Source: Epichloe hybrida (lineage: Eukaryota > Ascomycota > Sordariomycetes > Hypocreales > Clavicipitaceae). Taken from it: 64,000 nt of DNA. Positions 11,455 to 42,643 of the stretch are shown here, piece by piece. Location of the stretch: the NCBI GenBank assembly GCA_019022495.1, contig JAFEKR010000016.1:1054001-1118000 (forward strand). Reading direction: 5' to 3'. The notes under the pieces were generated by a model that saw only the letters and a program-made list of their open reading frames with translations, was not told where the DNA came from and did no database searches. Position 1 is the first letter of the stretch. Every line of letters starts with the position of its first letter. The position numbers and the translations under genes were made by a program.

Positions 11455-13266
11455 ATGGCTGTCGTTAAAATCACTCGGAAACAACGCCTGATAGCTACCA
11501 TCTGCATATCAGCCGCTTTTTTTTTTGCAGAGCTTATAGGTGAGTACGACCTCTCTTTTTCTGACTCTGGTTTTTGGGATATGGTCAGCTAACGTACATA
11601 CATGACTTGGATAGTTGGTCTTTATACGCATTCTCTTGCCCTCGTCGCCGATGCCTTTCACTACGTAATTGATACTCTCACACACACAGAAAGTTTTTTA
11701 CTTTACTGTCTGTCGTAAACATGGACTAATTCGACTACCAATAGCTTAGTGATTTGGTGGGTTTCGTGGTGGCATTGGTGGCCCTCATGGTTTGTTGCTT
11801 CCCTTAAGCGAAGATGCATAGTACAATCGAAACTGACATGTCGACAGGTTTCAGAAAGATCCGAACCGCCGCCTAGAAAATTCACGTTTGGCTGGCAAAG
11901 AGCTACACTCCTTGGAGCGTTCTTCAATGGCGTCTTTCTTTTGGCTCTAGGCGTCAGTATCCTTGTGCAAGCCATACAGAGGTTGACAGACGGCCCTCGT
12001 AGGTATTCCCTCTATTCATTGAGACGAGTTTGCAATTATCTGATTAGGATATAGACATCGATCAGCCAAAGATTGTCTTTATTATCGGTTGTGTCGGGCT
12101 CGGTCTCAACTTACTGGTCATATCATTTTTGCATGGTAAACAATCTCCGTGTGGGAAGGGGGGGGGTCTAGGAACCGTGCTAATGCGCTGCTCAAGAACA
12201 CGATCATGATCACGGGCATGGTCATAGTCACTCAAATCATCATCACGCTCACGAAGAAAACATCCATGACAAAGCCGCCCCGTCAGATGACGACGGAATT
12301 CTTGTGTTTTCAGACGACAACGGAGTCCACATAGAAGCAAGAAAGAACTCCGTAAATTACAAACAAGTTCACCGTGTATGGATCCGATAAAAACCCCAGC
12401 TAAGAATTTGCTTGCAGGCAACAAGCAGCCACTATGATCACAAACACGCCGCCGTGACGCCCTCTAAGCCCGAAAGAGATCTCGGTCTTCTCGGCGTCTT
12501 AATCCACGTCGTTGGCGACGCCATCAATAACGTTGGCGTCATCGTCGCTGCGCTCATCATCTGGAAGACGGACAGCCCAGCGCGATACTATGCCGACCCT
12601 TCCATTGGCCTTTTCATTGCCATAATGATAATTCTTACCGCTGTGCCTTTGACGAAGAGCAGCGGTAGCATATTATTGCAGGTTGCCCCCAGCGGCATTG
12701 ACGCGGAGGATATAAAGCATGATATTGAAATGGTGACTAGTTGGCAGCCTTCTTTCCTCCCTTTCCTCCCTTTCCTTTCCTCTTTCCTATATTTTCTCCT
12801 TTTTTTTTGTCTCTTTTTTTTTTTTTTTTTTGCCAAAAACTTTTGGCAGACACCGCATTTAGCGCAACTAATAACAAAGATCAGATTTTCAATCCAAAAA
12901 CTTTTGGCAGACACCGCATTTAGCGCAACTAATAACAAAGATCAGATTGACGGGATTCAATCCGTACACGAACTTCACATCTGGCGCCTCAACCAAAGAA
13001 AATCCGTCGCAACAGCGCACATTGTGGTTGATGATGGAAACTTCAAGAACTTTACTGAAAAGGCAACGATCATCATGGAGTGCTTGCACGCATACGGCAT
13101 TCATTCAGCAACGCTCCAGCCAGAAGCTTCCCCTCCGGCCATCGTGGAGCGCGCAGAATCAGCTTCGGATGTCAGTGAAGGAGCTGTTCGAGAACGCCGA
13201 ATCAATCAGCCTTCTTGCCAACTGATTTGCAGCAGTGTTTGTTCCGGGATGCGGTGTTGCACATAA
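11455..13266 (+). CDS. ZRC1: Zinc/cation diffusion facilitator (Zrc1/Cot1 family)
   Basis: Membrane Zn2+/H+ antiporter expected on the vacuole, storing or detoxifying zinc. Eight exons: 11455-11539, 11615-11664, 11745-11789, 11848-11998, 12055-12135, 12197-12366, 12418-12732, 12946-13266, giving 405 aa. Helix II has HSLALVADAFHYLSD and helix V has HVVGDAINNVGV, the paired His/Asp zinc sites of the family. The cytosolic loop between helices IV and V is His-rich (HDHDHGHGHSHSNHHHAH). The C-terminal domain starts IDGIQSVHELHIWRL and ends CQLICSSVCSGMRCCT, a Cys tail common in fungal homologues. Introns 5 (acceptor AAG) and 6 (donor GTTCAC) are less canonical but keep frame. The last intron (12733-12945, 213 bp) carries an internal duplication of its own 3' splice site. 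Confidence 0.9.
12833..12948 (+). repeat. Tandem duplication of an intron 3' splice site
   Basis: A perfect 55-bp direct repeat (12833-12887 and 12894-12948, 61-bp offset) lies inside the last intron of the zinc transporter. Each copy holds a branch-site-like AACTAAT, the CAG acceptor and the first bases of the following exon. Only the downstream acceptor (12943-12945) joins in frame to the conserved IDGIQSV. A pyrimidine-rich tract with a long T run precedes the first copy. Confidence 0.9.
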
Positions 13267-22625: not shown

Positions 22626-24730
22626 ACTATATCTAGTAGTATTTACCTTATGTTTTTCCTATAGCATAGTACTATATATATCCCTTAGGATATTAAATAA
22701 GTTAAGATTATCTCCCTTATCTTAATCTTATTCTCTATCTATATTAATCTTTATGCGTTTCTTATTTCTTCCCTTATTAGTTTCCTCCTTATCTAAGTCT
22801 TCTAAATTATCTCTTATTAAGTCTTCCTAGGATAATCCTAATTCCTTACTATACTATACTTCTCCTATATTTTATTTAGAGTAGTTATAGCCTATGTTTA
22901 AGGATAATTCCTTATTTTATAATGCTTTGCGATATTTAATCTAACTCTAAGTAATTATCTAATAAGCTAATACGGGTTTTAGTTAAGGGACGCTAGTATA
23001 ATAAGAGGTAAATAATTTAATTTCTATCTTAGAGCTTAACTTAATAGCTATTCTATCTATAATAATATTCTATAGTGGTTTCTAGATAACTATAGTAATA
23101 GACTTTAATTCTAGTTTGCTAATAAGAACTTATTTGCTAGTTATTTTCACTATATTATCTAATTCTAAACTATATAAACTATATAACTCTATTCCCCTTT
23201 TACTTATAGTAATATTATTCTTCCTATTAATATCCCCCTTAGTCTTCCTATCCTCCTAATATACTCTTTGTTTATACTTTATTCTCTAAGTATTCTCCAC
23301 TAGTGTTCCCTTAAAGCTTATTATTCTAATCTTATTTACTAGCTATAGTAGATTAAGAAAACGTAAATAATCGCTAACTTTATTATTTATAATGCTTAGT
23401 TTTTTAACTCCTAGTTCTTAGCTTCTTTTATAATCTAGCTATTTAATCCCCTTAGGAGCTATTTAACTTCCTCTAGAATTTTCTAGTTATCTTCTATAAA
23501 CTCTATAATCTTCTCTAGATTTGTTCTCTATAGTAGCTAAGCTCTTATATTAGATCTTTAAAATAAGTCTAGGTATAAATATATTAGTAAAGTTTAAGTT
23601 TCCCCTTTTATCCTAGTAATTATAATCTTTTCCTATCTATAATATTTAATAGCATTTACTCTTTATAGCTAAACTTTTCCTAATAATATATCCTATTCCT
23701 AAGCTAGTATTATATAACATTTTAATAATACTAGGATTTTGCTTACTATAATCTAGAGGTAAGTATAGTAAGAAATCTGCTAATTTCTATTATTTACTAG
23801 CTAAATAGATTATTTTTCTTAAAGTTAAATAGTTAGAAGTCTATGTCTTTTTAGGTAGCTCTTGCTTACTAATTCTATACTTAAGCTACTATTAAGTAAG
23901 GCTAAGTTACACTAGATGCCTTTAATATAGGCTATAATATATCCTAATATTATTAGAACCTCACTATCTAGCTAAGTAATATTATTTTATATAATTATAG
24001 CATTTATTAAACCTAAAGACTTATAGACTAGTATATTAGGGTATACTACTTCTTTATATAGTTCTATAAGATTAAAAACCATTAACTTTACTTTATTGCT
24101 TTTTATTTTTTAATAATATTATATTAAATAGCTTAGTTACTATTAGATAATTAGAGCTATCTAAAGAAGTTATAGAATACTAATAAATACTATAGTTTTA
24201 CTTAACTATTTTCCTAGGTTAAATAGTAAGACTTTATATTCTTTAGTAGCTTAGATATTCTCTAAAGCTAATCTTTAATAAGGTTAGGGGTTTAAAGTAA
24301 TATTACCTATTACTACTTCTCTTAGAGTAAGACTAGTAGTAAGTTTATAAGGGTTTACTATAGTCTTCTCTAGATATAGTTATAGTGTAAGAAGTATTTA
24401 TTAGAATTCCTTAGTACTTATTTCCTAGAGTAGTTAATGTGTACTTAGACTTAGATTATTTCTCTCCTATATAGTCTTATCTAATTCTAGAATTTCTTTG
24501 ATTTATTATTATAATAGTTTGCTTAACATATTCTTAGGTTTAGTCCTTAATTTAATAATTCTCTTAGCTAGTCCTCTAGTAAATACTAGCTTATTTGCCT
24601 TTTCCTTTCCCTTTAGTAGTGTTATAGTATTAACCTATCTTGCTTTATTTTTCTCCTAGATATAGCTTAGGGAATAGTAGTTTAGGAGTAATACTATAAA
24701 TAATTAGAGTTTTAAATTAAGAATATATTC

Positions 24731-24872
24731 TTTAGGTAGGATTAGTTAGTCTATTTCTATAGCGCTAATAAAATTAGTTTAGTTTAAGTTATCTAATTCT
24801 CTTTAGGTAGGATTAGTTAGTCTATTTCTATAGCGCTAATAAAATTAGTTTAGTTTAAGTTATCTAATTCTC
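24731..24872. repeat. Perfect 71-bp tandem duplication inside the RIP region
   Basis: Copies 24731-24801 and 24802-24872 are identical, followed by a partial third start (tttag). Identity inside otherwise heavily mutated DNA indicates the duplication arose after RIP. Confidence 0.9.
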
Positions 24873-27854
24873 TTTAGTAATCTCTCTTTATTTATAGCCT
24901 TTTATAAGCCTACTAGTCTTAGTGTCTATTAAAGTCTTTAGATAAGTATTTATCCTTCCTAGTGTAGTTATAACCTATATATCCTTATTTACTATATAAG
25001 AAACACTAGAAGAAGTCTAGGTCCCTCTAGGGTTTATCTTAAGGATATATACTAATATTATTTCCTAAAGGTTTTCCTAGAGATTAGGGTCTATTATTTA
25101 AATTATATTTTAATTAATTATATTAACTAGCTATTTATTAAATATTCTTAATAGCTTAGGCCTAGAATACTTCTAGTTATCTCACTAGCTTTACTATTTA
25201 GTTAGTAGCTTATTTCTCTTTTCTCTATTATTTTTCTATTTATTTCTAAAGAGGTCCTATCCTAGCTATTAAGACTTTATCTTTAAATAGTTATAATATC
25301 TTTTTAGAAGTAAATAAGTAGTAGTTATATAAGATAAGTTTTAGGTTAGATATTATTAAGTCCTTTAAGGCTATACTATCTATTTACTTACTTAATATAA
25401 ATAAATAGTCTAATACTCTCTCTTATAATTAAGTATTTACTTCTCTATTTACTAGATAGGTAATAAAGTTAGTAAAGAGAACTTATTATATATTAGATTT
25501 TAATTTTAAAGCTAAATACTTAGCTTATTAAATATAAGTATTTAGTGTCTTACTAGGTTCTTATATAAAACTATATACCTCTTACTAAGTAAAAATCTTA
25601 ATAAATAGATTAGGGTTTTTAAACTTAGCTAGGAATTTTAAGGCTATTTATTCCTAAGTCCTATCTTTATATTCTAAGTCCTTATACTAGAGAGCTACTT
25701 TCCCTTATAGGCCCTAGATAAATATTAAACACGTAAAGGTATTAATATATTCTTTTAGAGCTTAAGCTATTATAGCTATTATTTTATAATATTTTAGATA
25801 TTCCTTAGCTAGCCTATCTTTTAGTAAGCTAGAGAAAGTAATTCCCTTGCTTATAGTTAGGTTTATAGGGAAGAAAGAACTACCTATATTAATTATTTAT
25901 CTAGTTTCTCTAATTTTAATAGGTTCTTTAAATTAAAGCAATAGAGAAGGGAAAAGTAGTAAGATTTTATTTACTAAATAAGGCGGTTTTAGAGGGTAAA
26001 TAAGGCTAATAGGGCTAGGAATAAACTCTAAGAATTTTCTATTATCCTATTCTAAGTCTAAACTTAAGTCTAATTCTTTATAAGTCCTAGCGTTTAGTTT
26101 CGCTAAAGCCTAATCTTATATAAAGTAATTAAGATAGGAAATAGGAGTTTAATGGTTTCCTAGCACAGATTAGTATTAATAGGGTATGATTCTGTTAATA
26201 ATATATCTAATCCTTTAACTAAGATTAGATAGTAAAGTTAGGGTTTTTTTATTAAAAGAGCTTATAAACTTTATTATAATAAAGTTTTTAAGAAGATAGA
26301 AAATATTTAAGGCTAAACTTAAATTATTATATATAATTTATTACTTAGTATTTGCCTAGCCTAAGAAAAGAAGGAAAAAGAAAAACTATTCTAGTCCCCC
26401 CTAAAATAAAACCTTTTTACTCTTACCCTCCCTAACTCCTTCTTACTAAGTCTAAACCTTCCTAATTTAAGTAATCTCCTATTATAAATATAGTATATAG
26501 TACTTTACTTATACTATACTATTTAATTAAAAGATTAGATAAGTGACTAAGTAATGTTAAAAGTAAGTTAAAAGTAAGGGTATAGTCTGTGTGCTATACC
26601 TCTAATTATAGTGGTATAATCCTCCCTATAAACTAATATTTTTAAGGTTAAGAGCTACTATAGCTAGTTTCTTAAAGCATAAAGTTTAGTCTTTAGTTTA
26701 CACTATATCTAGCATATTTACTAGAGTGTCTATAGTTATAATACCACATAAACATTATAGCTTCTTAGTGTAGTTACTTTAGTAAGTAAACACTCCTAGT
26801 AAGTTTTATAGCATATCCTATAAGTGATTTTCCTAGTTTATAGCACTTCCTATATGCTTCTTAAAGTTATAAGTTTAAGGTCTATATTATATTATATCTA
26901 TTATAATATATACTAGTTTTCTATTAACTAAAGGTAAAATTCCTATGTTACTAAGTATATAAATACGCGTTCCTACGCCTAAGTTCTATGGTTTAGGTTA
27001 AATTCTAAGGTTAGAAAATTCTCTAAGGTTATAACTACTATTCACTATTATCTATCTTCTATTTACTTACTATATTATAGTGCCTATTTTACTAAGTGTG
27101 TAAATATTATTTCCTAGGGTTAGATTCCTAGGCTTAAGTAAAGTTTATAGTATTTCTTAATTTCCTAAGTTTAAATGCCCTATTTACTAGTGTCTAGTCT
27201 ATATCTAACCCACTAGTTTGTAACTACCTAAATTAAATAAGGTTATAATTATTTACTATCTAGGCTACTAGTATTATACTATACTAGCGCTATAGTGTTT
27301 TAGTAATTATTCTTTATGCTTATTCTTCTAGGGTTATTCTTTATTTAGGTATCTAGCCTATTTATTTCCTATAATAGGACTTTCCTATTCTTTATTATAA
27401 TATCCCCTCTCCTAATAATTAGTTCTTATTACCTATCCTATACTAAGTAGCTATTAGCTATCTTATTATAGGTATTCTAAGAACTTTCCCTAGTGGTTAT
27501 TTATAAGTTTTATATAGCCCTATAGTTCTATATCTATCCTATTAAGTCCTATAGTCCTTAATATTCTTATGTTATCTAATAGTAATGTTTTCTAACCTTA
27601 GCTAGATAATCTCCTTAAATATAGTAATAACTATAGCTATATTCTATTATTTTTCTATATTATTTCTAGCTATAGTTATACTCTAATAAAGTTTATAACT
27701 CCTCTTACCTTTAGTCTAGTTTATAGTTCTTTAATTATTTAACCTAATAATCTCTTAGAAGTTATTTATTATATATTCTTAGGTATTGGATATTTAAGTC
27801 TAGTAATAATTTAAGCTAACTAAAGGGTAATATAAAGTCCTAGTCTTATTACTA

Positions 27855-36718: not shown

Positions 36719-37413
36719 ATGGCTTCAGAAGACTCGAAAGAAGACAAAGATGCACTCGATGCCCTTGAAGTGGAAGCCAAAGAATTCGACAAGGCATGCC
36801 ATCTTCTCCCCGATTCATCAAAGTCAAGAAACGTGATCCACTGACGAGCCATACGTCGCAGGATGCTGAAATCGATCGGATCCTCAGGGCATTCCGGCTG
36901 GATGCGTAAGATTGACACCTCAAAGCGGGCACACGGAAGAAATGTCGACGCATCCTCCATGACCATTGACTAACCAAGAACGCACCGCGCAGCTACGCCG
37001 TGCTAGACCTCCAGCCAGGTGTTCCCGAATCCGACATTAAAATCACCTATCGCAAAAAGTCCCTCCTTATCCATCCGGACAAGACGAAGAATCCTCAAGC
37101 CCCAGATGCCTTTGACCGTCTCAAAAAGGCCCAAACAAGTGACTTTGCCAAGAAGTGGCGCGAAAAATCAAAAGAGGTGCTGATTGACAATGAGCACCGA
37201 CGGAGGCGGCAAATGAAGGCTCAAATGCAGGAAGAAGGCAGGGAGCTGAGGAAACAGGACGCTGATTTGGAAGAGAGGAAGCGAAAGAGGCAGCATGAGC
37301 AGGATTGGGAGGCGACGAGAGATGAGAGAATCAGCAGTTGGAGAACGTTTCAGAAGGGCAAGTCGACGGACGGGGACAAGAAGAAGAAGAAGAAACTGAA
37401 GCCTATTGGGTGA
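36719..37413 (+). CDS. J-domain protein of the DNAJC8/Spf31 type
   Basis: Nuclear J protein related to DNAJC8/Spf31, linked to the spliceosome. Exons 36719-36793, 36862-36905, 36993-37413, 179 aa. Intron 1 (36794-36861) starts GC (AAG|GCATGC) and ends CGCAG; it is the only choice that joins FDK to DAEIDRILRAFRLDAYAVLDL in frame. Intron 2 is GTAAGA...CAG with a GACTAAC branch site. The J domain has YAVLDLQPGVPESDIKITYR and the HPD motif (IHPDKTKNP). The C-terminal half is a charged coiled coil (RRRRQMKAQMQEEGRELRKQ) ending KKKKKLKPIG. After DRLKKAQT the sequence jumps to SDFAKKWREKS, so about 40 residues present in relatives (the end of the J domain and a linker) are absent from the DNA. Confidence 0.82.
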
Positions 37414-40900: not shown

Positions 40901-40907
40901 TATAAAA
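40901..40907 (+). promoter_or_regulatory. TATA box of the micro-exon secreted-protein gene
   Basis: TATAAAA lies 81 bp upstream of the ATG at 40982, a typical fungal core promoter spacing. Two copies of ttgagcccatctgaatta follow downstream of it. Confidence 0.6.
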
Positions 40908-40928
40908 CCAGCCTCCGGTCGCCTCACG

Positions 40929-40969
40929 TTGAGCCCATCTGAATTAATTTTTTGAGCCCATCTGAATTA
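40929..40969 (+). repeat. 18-bp direct repeat in the 5' leader
   Basis: ttgagcccatctgaatta occurs at 40929-40946 and 40952-40969, between the TATA box and the start codon. Confidence 0.85.
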
Positions 40970-40981
40970 CCTCCATCGGAA

Positions 40982-41496
40982 ATGTATTCTGCCAAGCTTT
41001 TCTCTGTGGCCTTTGCTGGTCTATCGCTTCTCTCCATTGCCGTCGCGGCGCCACAACTTGGAAGGGCGAAGCTTCCGAAGGTAGAGACACGTGACAGTAT
41101 GTTCTAGGAAAAGCTCTGACAAAACTGCGATATATCTAATTTAATTGCACAGACAAGAATAACATCGTAGCTCGCGGTATTTCTTAGGAGAAGCTCCTGA
41201 CAAAAACTGCGATATATTTTCTAATTCAATTGCACAGATGAACCAGCGATCGTTCCCGGTATGTAGGAGAAGCTCTGACAAGCACTGCGATACGTTTCTA
41301 ATTCAATCGCACAGATGATGAGAGTGACATCATAGCTATCGGTATGTCTTAGGAGAAGCTCCTAACAAAAACTGCGATATATCTAATTTAAATGCACAGG
41401 TGATGATGATGCCATCACGGTTCGCGGTATGTTCTGGGAGAAGCTCTGACAAAAACTGCTATATATCTAATTCAATTGCAACTGCACATAGTTTAG
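40982..41496 (+). CDS. Small secreted protein encoded by tandem intron/micro-exon units
   Basis: Predicted 72-aa secreted protein of unknown function, not matching any family I know. Exon 1 (40982-41096) gives a strong signal peptide (MYSAKLFSVAFAGLSLLSIA, cleavage near AVAA-P) and a short basic pro-like segment. Four micro-exons of 24, 21, 27 and 27 nt follow (41153-41176, 41238-41258, 41315-41341, 41400-41426), then a terminal exon that adds one residue and TAG (41492-41496). Every micro-exon is in phase 1 at both ends, a multiple of three, and free of stops, encoding NKNNIVAR, DEPAIVP, DDESDIIAI and GDDDAITVR (an acidic half, then a hydrophobic half). The five introns (56, 61, 56, 58, 65 bp) are near-identical to one another: GTATGT/GTATTT, an agaagctc block, actgcgatata, CTAAT branch, ...GCACAG. 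Without splicing the frame stops six bases past exon 1, so the structure is meaningful only if spliced. Confidence 0.72.
41097..41491 (+). repeat. Tandem array of five homologous introns
   Basis: Units start at 41097, 41177, 41259, 41342 and 41427 (periods 80, 82, 83, 85 bp). The intron parts are far more alike than the 21-27 nt exons between them. This is tandem duplication of an intron-exon module. Confidence 0.9.
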
Positions 41497-42643
41497 GTTT
41501 TGCTGCCATAAAGATAAATTTACGCTCCCGGACGGCAGCGTTTGCGGCCCAGCCTGTTGAAGTTGGTGGCTTCTGTGGGAGGGGGAGTCTGAGTTTCATT
41601 CATGTTAGATGAGATTAGGATAGCCTCATCCCAAGATTCACCCCGTACCTTTCCAAAAGTCACTCATCCACGTTTGGCTATTAACTTTCTCTCTACTTCC
41701 CAATCCATGTTGTATTGTATTGTTCACACTTCAGGACACCCCAGACACTTCTGTGTTCATCACGATCATCGGAGCCACTTTCCTTTACTACCTTTTTTTT
41801 TTTTTTTTTTTTTTTTTTTTCCCCCACAATCAGAGCGTAACGGAGGACTCAAACCCTCAACAGCCTGCTTTGGCGGCATCAAGATCTCCAAGTTGGGTAC
41901 GGACTACTGGAAGGGGCCTGTGTTCTTGAAAAGCGGGGGCGGGGTTTTGTTTCACACCGCCGACACCACCTGTTGACCGGGATAGTACAGTACAGTGGGG
42001 TGTATCTCGCCAAGTCATCGTCACCCGTCACCGTCAACGTAACCATGCACGTCCCCGCGAACGTCATGGAAGATGAAAGTTTCTTGTTCTTGCTGCTGCG
42101 CAGTGGTGGGAAAAGACGCAACGTTGGGAATCTACCCCTTTTTTTTTTCCGACCTCGTCATGAACTGAGCAGACTTGCAAATGGTGTCCGACGAGTTTAA
42201 TTCCATCATGACAAAATTCGCAAGATCCCATGGGCCATGGCTGTCCCAAACATCTCGGGAAGCCGTCCGTGGTTGCCGAAGCCGTTTTCGGCACAAAGTC
42301 TATACTCCGTACTCCGTAGTGATGTGCCATTCTTTGAAACAGACAGTGCGAACCAAAAGTAACGACGGAAAATGACAAAGGCGCACGATGAAACAAGAGT
42401 CCTCTTCGCAACGGAATTGGCTGGTTACTTAAACTTCCCGGGAAGTCCGAAGAAAGTAGGGCGGGCAGGGTATTAAGTCGCTTGCTTTGCTTGTTTGCCT
42501 TGCTTGCTCAAGGCCGTCCGTCCGTCCGTCCGTCCGTCGTCATTCTTATTTACATCCTCCATCCAAATCCTGCCTCATCAAATATAACGTGTCTGAACGA
42601 GAGAAAAAAAAAAAAGAGTCAACGCGCAACATCTCCAACCATC
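41497..42643. other. Intergenic before the SDR gene
   Basis: 3' flank of the micro-exon gene, a long T tract (about 41791-41820), two adjacent TACTCCGTA motifs near 42303, and a (CCGT)n microsatellite at about 42513-42537 in the SDR leader. No other gene is supported. Confidence 0.5.

Follow-up and report, generated by a model that had tools for sequence, protein, structure and literature searches.

The gene described here lies at positions 40982–41496 of the forward strand of a 64,000-nucleotide stretch of contig JAFEKR010000016.1 (the window), and it consists of one long 5' exon followed by four micro-exons that alternate with short, closely similar introns. Exon 1 (40982–41096; 115 nt, 38 codons plus 1 nt) encodes a likely signal peptide and a spacer. 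The splice model places intron 1 at 41097–41152 (56 nt), micro-exon 1 at 41153–41176 (24 nt), intron 2 at 41177–41237 (61 nt), micro-exon 2 at 41238–41258 (21 nt), intron 3 at 41259–41314 (56 nt), micro-exon 3 at 41315–41341 (27 nt), intron 4 at 41342–41399 (58 nt), micro-exon 4 at 41400–41426 (27 nt) and intron 5 at 41427–41491 (65 nt); the terminal coding piece with the last codon and the TAG stop occupies 41492–41496. The donor is GTATGT in four introns and GTATTT in one, CTAAT is found in all five, and the acceptor is CACAG in four and CATAG in intron 5. All four micro-exons are symmetric (phase 1-1), multiples of three and free of stops, and retention of any one of the five introns brings an in-frame stop. 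In these respects, and in the close likeness of the introns, an earlier note made from the sequence alone had described the gene correctly, as it had the TATA box 81 bp 5' of the ATG (TATAAAA, 40901–40907, read directly, with a counterpart at the aligned position of the diverged copy described below). With all five introns removed the product has 72 residues, and the micro-exons supply 99 of the 219 coding nucleotides (45%). The array was picked up independently by Tandem Repeats Finder with periods of 85 bp (score 336) and 165 bp (score 413); the slightly better score of the longer period hints at a two-unit step. Two copies of the element CATCTGAATTA lie 5' of the ATG, between 40930 and 40980.

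The splice model was computed before any database search. Its product is identical at 72/72 residues to the deposited protein C2857_007426 of Epichloë festucae Fl1 (P0001), which contains the peptides of all four micro-exons and has the same end. The Fl1 annotation therefore implies the same spliced product as the model, and we regard this identity as the strong test of coding. The reading frame points the same way. The spliced phase is open in 4/4 window micro-exons and in 3/3 homologous segments of the diverged copy on contig C135 (the left edge of one, which lies inside exon 1, was set by homology and not by a splice site), and the other two frames are closed in 7/7 and 4/7 of these segments. 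Shuffled segments were all open in 4.7% of trials for the seven segments and in 19% for the four window segments, and open frames by themselves are therefore modest evidence. Stops in the exon frames of relatives had been named in the earlier note as the mark of a non-coding repeat; in the DNA of one relative, the C135 copy, the frames are open. Together, the Fl1 match and the in-frame C135 copy bear out the proposal of a coding micro-exon gene in a fungus, built from a duplicated exon-plus-intron module.

Searches of the genome (80 Mb; all match counts are lower bounds) with a 701-bp query matched four identical contig copies and the diverged copy on C135, and no other place; a protein query gave one locus per subgenome. 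The C135 copy is 72% identical over window positions 40923–41314. Its splice model has three introns (70, 59 and 56 nt) and two micro-exons (21 and 24 nt) and is open over 83 amino acids, with 45 of 252 coding nucleotides in micro-exons. Its exon 1 closes with 24 nt that agree with its last micro-exon at 20/24 bases; as far as this match goes, they are a unit-like piece fused to exon 1 without an intron. The exon units thus measure 24, 21, 27 and 27 nt in the window and 24 (fused), 21 and 24 nt on C135, all seven divisible by three, and the differences between intron lengths (56, 61, 56, 58 and 65 nt; 70, 59 and 56 nt) are no multiples of three. Since the C135 copy has fewer units, all in frame, the unit number has changed while the frame was kept. 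Four diverged copies of the upstream element (CATCTGAC...) lie 5' of the ATG of the C135 copy.

The C135 copy is likely the homeolog of the window gene. The FNIP core gene has a 96% identical place on C135 and four identical places, the window's own among them; the SDR neighbour gene is 91% identical on C135, where it also adjoins the micro-exon copy, and a stretch containing the DnaJ gene is 94% identical. Four-fold sites differ between the subgenomes at 18/219 (DnaJ) and 18/174 (SDR). These diverged counterparts of neighbour genes, together with the Fl1 protein match, make it likely that the host is a hybrid between Epichloë species, one of whose subgenomes resembles E. festucae. The four identical places (contigs C65, C82, C144 and C17) agree at 100% over 3.7 kb around the gene, and over 20-kb stretches at 99.6–100% in aligned pieces, some of which are separated by indels as long as a few hundred bases. 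They look like one segment present in overlapping or redundant contigs (C144 is 65 kb and C17 is 47 kb); judging from their positions, C65 may run at its end into the start of C82. At window positions 37133–37136 the three other contigs with the segment carry about 107 bp that the window contig does not.

Within the window array, pooled mismatches amount to 29/332 intron columns and 40/136 exon columns; the micro-exons are 3.4 times as divergent as the introns, and the exon is the more divergent part in 6/6 unit pairs. Because these pairs overlap and are not independent, a Fisher value for the contrast is no true probability. Between the subgenomes, exon 1 is 91.7% identical over 108 nt (8% different) and the last intron differs at 8.9% of 56 columns (91.1% identity), both close to the four-fold sites, while the first intron differs by 16%, the flanks by 16–19% and the stretch homologous to the cysteine end by 27%. 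Since the difference between copies resembles that of four-fold sites, the introns are not unusually conserved, only alike inside the array; the earlier claim that introns are more conserved than exons holds within the array. The diversification of the exons that the note proposed is one of two readings. The exon peptides have diverged; homogenised introns offer the second reading. The intron likeness fits either homogenisation of the array or accelerated exons, with too few exon sites to choose. Positive selection on the micro-exons was considered and is not claimed.

The product begins with a hydrophobic stretch (Kyte-Doolittle value 2.2), in keeping with the signal peptide that had been proposed for exon 1; its VAA/PQ-like end was judged by eye. 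From the N-terminus, size and composition we infer that the product is secreted, and it is likely a small apoplastic peptide. It would comprise a signal peptide, a variable acidic linker encoded by the micro-exons and, in some lineages, a four-cysteine end (CC-C-C) that has dropped out of the reading frame of the window/Fl1 form. The C135 product and an E. bromicola protein (P0002, EsDP_00002138) share the N-terminus and a common end, ...GSVCDETC, preceded by a CC pair, with four cysteines in each. The window product has none: the window/Fl1 form terminates before a stretch (41498–41560, forward strand) that is homologous to the cysteine-containing C-terminal exon of the C135 copy and lies outside the spliced frame; from 41492 the identity to C135 is 72.6% over 73 columns. 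The best Pfam match for the family is Anophelin (E 0.015), below the cut-off, which no Pfam family exceeds. A profile search of the Protein Data Bank with the three sequences gave 0 matches, and the AlphaFold model of P0002 alone has a mean predicted local distance difference test score of 54.9, too low to interpret. The protein search, which requires shared five-residue words, yielded no third family member when widened by alignment or by the C-terminal region. P0002 also matches C69 weakly (E 0.8).

A generic search of the genome for an acceptor, 15–39 nt, a donor and a branch site returned 59 matches, compared with 45 in a reversed control. Fourteen of the 59 belong to the window gene, its contig copies and C135; without these and two matches on C67 the count is at the control level. 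Among the remaining matches, two in a row occur only on C67, as a pair on C93 overlaps and shares one donor. The two matches on C67 lie in a second tandem micro-exon gene at C67:389969–391005 (L041 3969–5005), for which the script called 12 internal exons: ten of 21 nt, one of 63 and one of 100. A diverged copy on C84 (L043), 76% identical and likely its homeolog, has eight (five of 21 nt, two of 63 and one of 94). These calls exclude the 5' end of the gene, and the 100-nt and 94-nt stretches each hold at least one intron missed by the script. The 21-nt exons are of phase 1, and 13/15 in the two copies encode an xEExxKR heptad. The introns measure 49–54 nt, and only 7/13 (C67) and 4/9 (C84) contain an in-frame stop. 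Taking the nearest AG as acceptor gives exons mostly of 21 and 25 nt, and taking the distal AG of a close pair gives 21 nt; as this rule was set after the first result, the window gene offers the more independent case of frame-keeping and the second gene the less independent one. Exons and introns of the second gene differ equally (0.25 vs 0.28; 0.29 vs 0.26), so the excess exon divergence is a property of the window gene and not of the architecture. A DNA search with either gene does not turn up the other. About 3 kb downstream, at L041 8080–8320, a shorter array (AAGCGCG/GTATGT, AGGAGGAA...AGAAG repeats) resembles the second gene, which may for this reason belong to a local family. One AT-rich 86-bp match of the generic search recurs in almost identical form on C72, C81 and C109, and probably represents a redundant segment or a repeat dispersed in the genome.

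Taken together, the data are best explained by a coding gene of a likely hybrid endophyte, with one long 5' exon and four symmetric micro-exons, that likely evolves by gain and loss of whole exon-plus-intron units; we give this reading a probability of about 0.72. An exon with its intron would have been duplicated in tandem, and slippage or unequal exchange would have multiplied the units. The near-identical introns would supply the homology that this needs and, because they are so alike, should make exchange easy. Breaks within these introns would be neutral to the frame, since each exon is symmetric (phase 1-1) and gain, loss or exchange of a unit leaves the frame intact. Exchange or conversion would keep the introns alike while the exon sequence drifts or is selected apart, and unit number would then vary between lineages. 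For each of the two genes, the window gene and the second gene, the unit number does differ between the two copies.

Several points weigh against this explanation. Unequal exchange is deduced from unit counts in two copies and one protein, and tree support for the introns is weak (0.57–0.83). The ratio of nonsynonymous to synonymous differences (pN/pS), with micro-exon codons aligned on hand-set anchors (the first codon and the Ile codon), is 0.83 pooled over 21 micro-exon pairs and leaves positive selection unsupported; single pairs range from 0.36 to 5.05, and one pair is without synonymous change. The Fl1 match is support at the level of annotation. PMC6218096 describes the Fl1 gene set as built from E2368 models and from transcripts that were assembled out of RNA-seq reads (PRJNA447872) obtained in culture and in planta, and either an E2368 model or an RNA-seq transcript may underlie C2857_007426. 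The window subgenome is moreover so near to Fl1 that their identity is uninformative on constraint. Secretion is read from sequence composition, and the family is seen in Epichloë only (2 proteins among 5.8 billion, in a search that depends on shared five-residue words). Lastly, the cysteine end is gone from the frame of the window copy. This may mark decay, and it does not favour a straightforward account of the gene as a well-preserved effector.

Decay of the whole gene, the cysteine end having been lost from the frame in the E. festucae lineage and the array now drifting without function, is possible but on balance doubtful. In the window copy the spliced frame does leave out the homologous stretch, and from 41492 this differs at 20/73 columns, compared with 36/393 four-fold sites (p = 1e-4). 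It is, however, not significantly more divergent than the downstream flank (24/124, p = 0.22). Against decay, 4/4 micro-exons are open and in register, exon 1 is still 92% identical to the C135 copy, and splice signals are present in 5/5 introns. The earlier note itself proposed a repertoire gene, in which skipping any subset of the four micro-exons would make many secreted variants from one locus. The arithmetic of that proposal is right, as all 16 subsets are in frame and give distinct proteins of 39–72 residues, and the near-identical introns could in principle pair any donor with any acceptor. We nevertheless consider it rather unlikely. For Fl1 the search turned up one deposited form, the C135 copy would be limited to 4, and skipping is unneeded because frame-neutrality follows from the duplication itself.

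It appears improbable that the product is a precursor from which several short peptides, one for each micro-exon, are processed. KEP (kexin-processed) and dikaritin precursors carry dibasic kexin sites between their repeats and have maturation enzymes as neighbours. In the window gene, 2/4 micro-exons end in an Arg codon directly before the junction codon, Arg-Asp or Arg-Gly recurs in P0002, and the genus is known for GigA (PMC6374014); but KR, RR and RK are absent from the three family proteins, P0002 has one KK, and the repeat peptides differ strongly. A kexin-processed precursor was rejected on this dibasic test. Introner-like elements inserted repeatedly into one gene would account for short, near-identical spliceosomal introns, and we hold them to be very improbable, as flanking exon stretches are repeated along with the introns. 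The 20 matches listed for an intron 2 query all fall on the array's five introns, once in each of the four contig copies; the search missed the C135 introns too, so diverged intron copies elsewhere would also be missed. A 26-base intron pattern allowing 3 mismatches had 8 matches in the genome, all in the window array. With intron matches confined to the array and its contig copies, introners were rejected, and so was a dispersed gene family, given the one locus found per subgenome. The repeat unit was found by the genome searches at no locus beyond the window copies and C135. Finally, tandem 85-bp repeats could be a non-coding minisatellite with chance splice-like motifs. This has next to no probability and was rejected: the C135 copy keeps its frame at a different unit number, and chance or a minisatellite is excluded because the splice form equals the deposited Fl1 protein.

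Gain and loss of whole units, the explanation we prefer, has its closest architectural match in the SmPoMuc genes of Schistosoma mansoni, closer than in the schistosome micro-exon genes (MEGs) to which the gene had first been likened. SmPoMuc genes contain tandem repeats of a 27-bp exon and a flanking intron (PMC2576457; PMC4015677). According to PMC2576457 the intronic part of the repeats is more than 94% identical while the exons differ, from which its authors conclude that introns are homogenised and exons selected; the same source mentions spider silk as a further case of tandem exon-plus-intron repeats with alike introns and differing exons. The window gene shares with SmPoMuc the tandem repeat of one tiny exon and an intron, and introns that are more alike than the exons (29/332 and 40/136 mismatches, as above). 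It differs in scale and setting, with units of about 80–90 bp, introns of 56–65 nt and one locus found per subgenome, whereas for SmPoMuc a unit of about 1 kb, a multigene family, a hammerhead ribozyme and alternative splicing are reported (PMC2576457; PMC4015677). With the MEGs it has in common short symmetric exons, a likely signal peptide and a fast-evolving product. The likeness drawn in the earlier note thus stands for the architecture and not for the extent: micro-exons hold 45% of its coding nucleotides, whereas in MEGs, for which alternative splicing is reported, exons of 6–36 bp make up about 80% of the coding region (PMC5825161; PMC4350168). MEG introns are not described as mutual copies in the available text of these two sources. 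Protein searches with the window family returned only two Epichloë proteins, MEG sequences not being directly compared. To our knowledge, there is no sequence link of the window gene to SmPoMuc, MEGs or bicycle genes, and the best reading of the likeness to schistosome genes is an architectural one, by convergence.

Other systems share single features. The bicycle genes of aphids encode putative plant effectors from many micro-exons of one phase; they differ in having about 17 exons on average, phase 2 and CYC motifs, and in being an insect family (PMC9168663), and near-identical introns are not described in the available text of that source. SP7-like effectors of Rhizophagus resemble the gene in coming from a plant-symbiotic fungus, in their repeats and in a conserved intron position, but have one conserved intron before the first repeat (PMC11333574). 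Fungal introner-like elements are short near-identical introns dispersed over unrelated genes (PMC4457414), whereas the window introns turned up at a single locus and its counterpart, where exon sequence was duplicated along with them. The sspM, sspN and sspO genes of Epichloë also encode small secreted proteins, SspN with internal repeats, but have one intron each and kexin sites in SspM and SspN; micro-exons go unmentioned in the available account. A fungal micro-exon gene family was not found among the papers listed by searches of the open-access literature, although a published case is still possible, and the locus tag gave no hit there.

More tentatively, and with less confidence than attaches to the window gene itself, the two genes may represent an Epichloë class of tandem micro-exon genes. 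In such a class a short intron would serve as a recombination cassette that drives unequal exchange, units would be gained and lost without harm to the frame, and host-facing or coiled segments would be re-sorted between lineages and possibly between transcripts, a convergent counterpart of SmPoMuc and MEGs. If true, a compact fungal version (units of about 80–90 bp) together with a second gene would mean that the design arises repeatedly. One could then test whether short introns guard the frame as repeats expand, and how a fungal spliceosome recognises 21-nt micro-exons. The genus lives inside a plant and is open to gene deletion, a practice reported for Epichloë in PMC6374014.

The nearest identified neighbours of the window gene are the DnaJ and SDR genes. 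Elsewhere in the window there are two perfect tandem repeats without a mismatch, one at 24729–24877 (71 bp, 2.1 copies) and one at 12833–12948 (61 bp, 1.9 copies).
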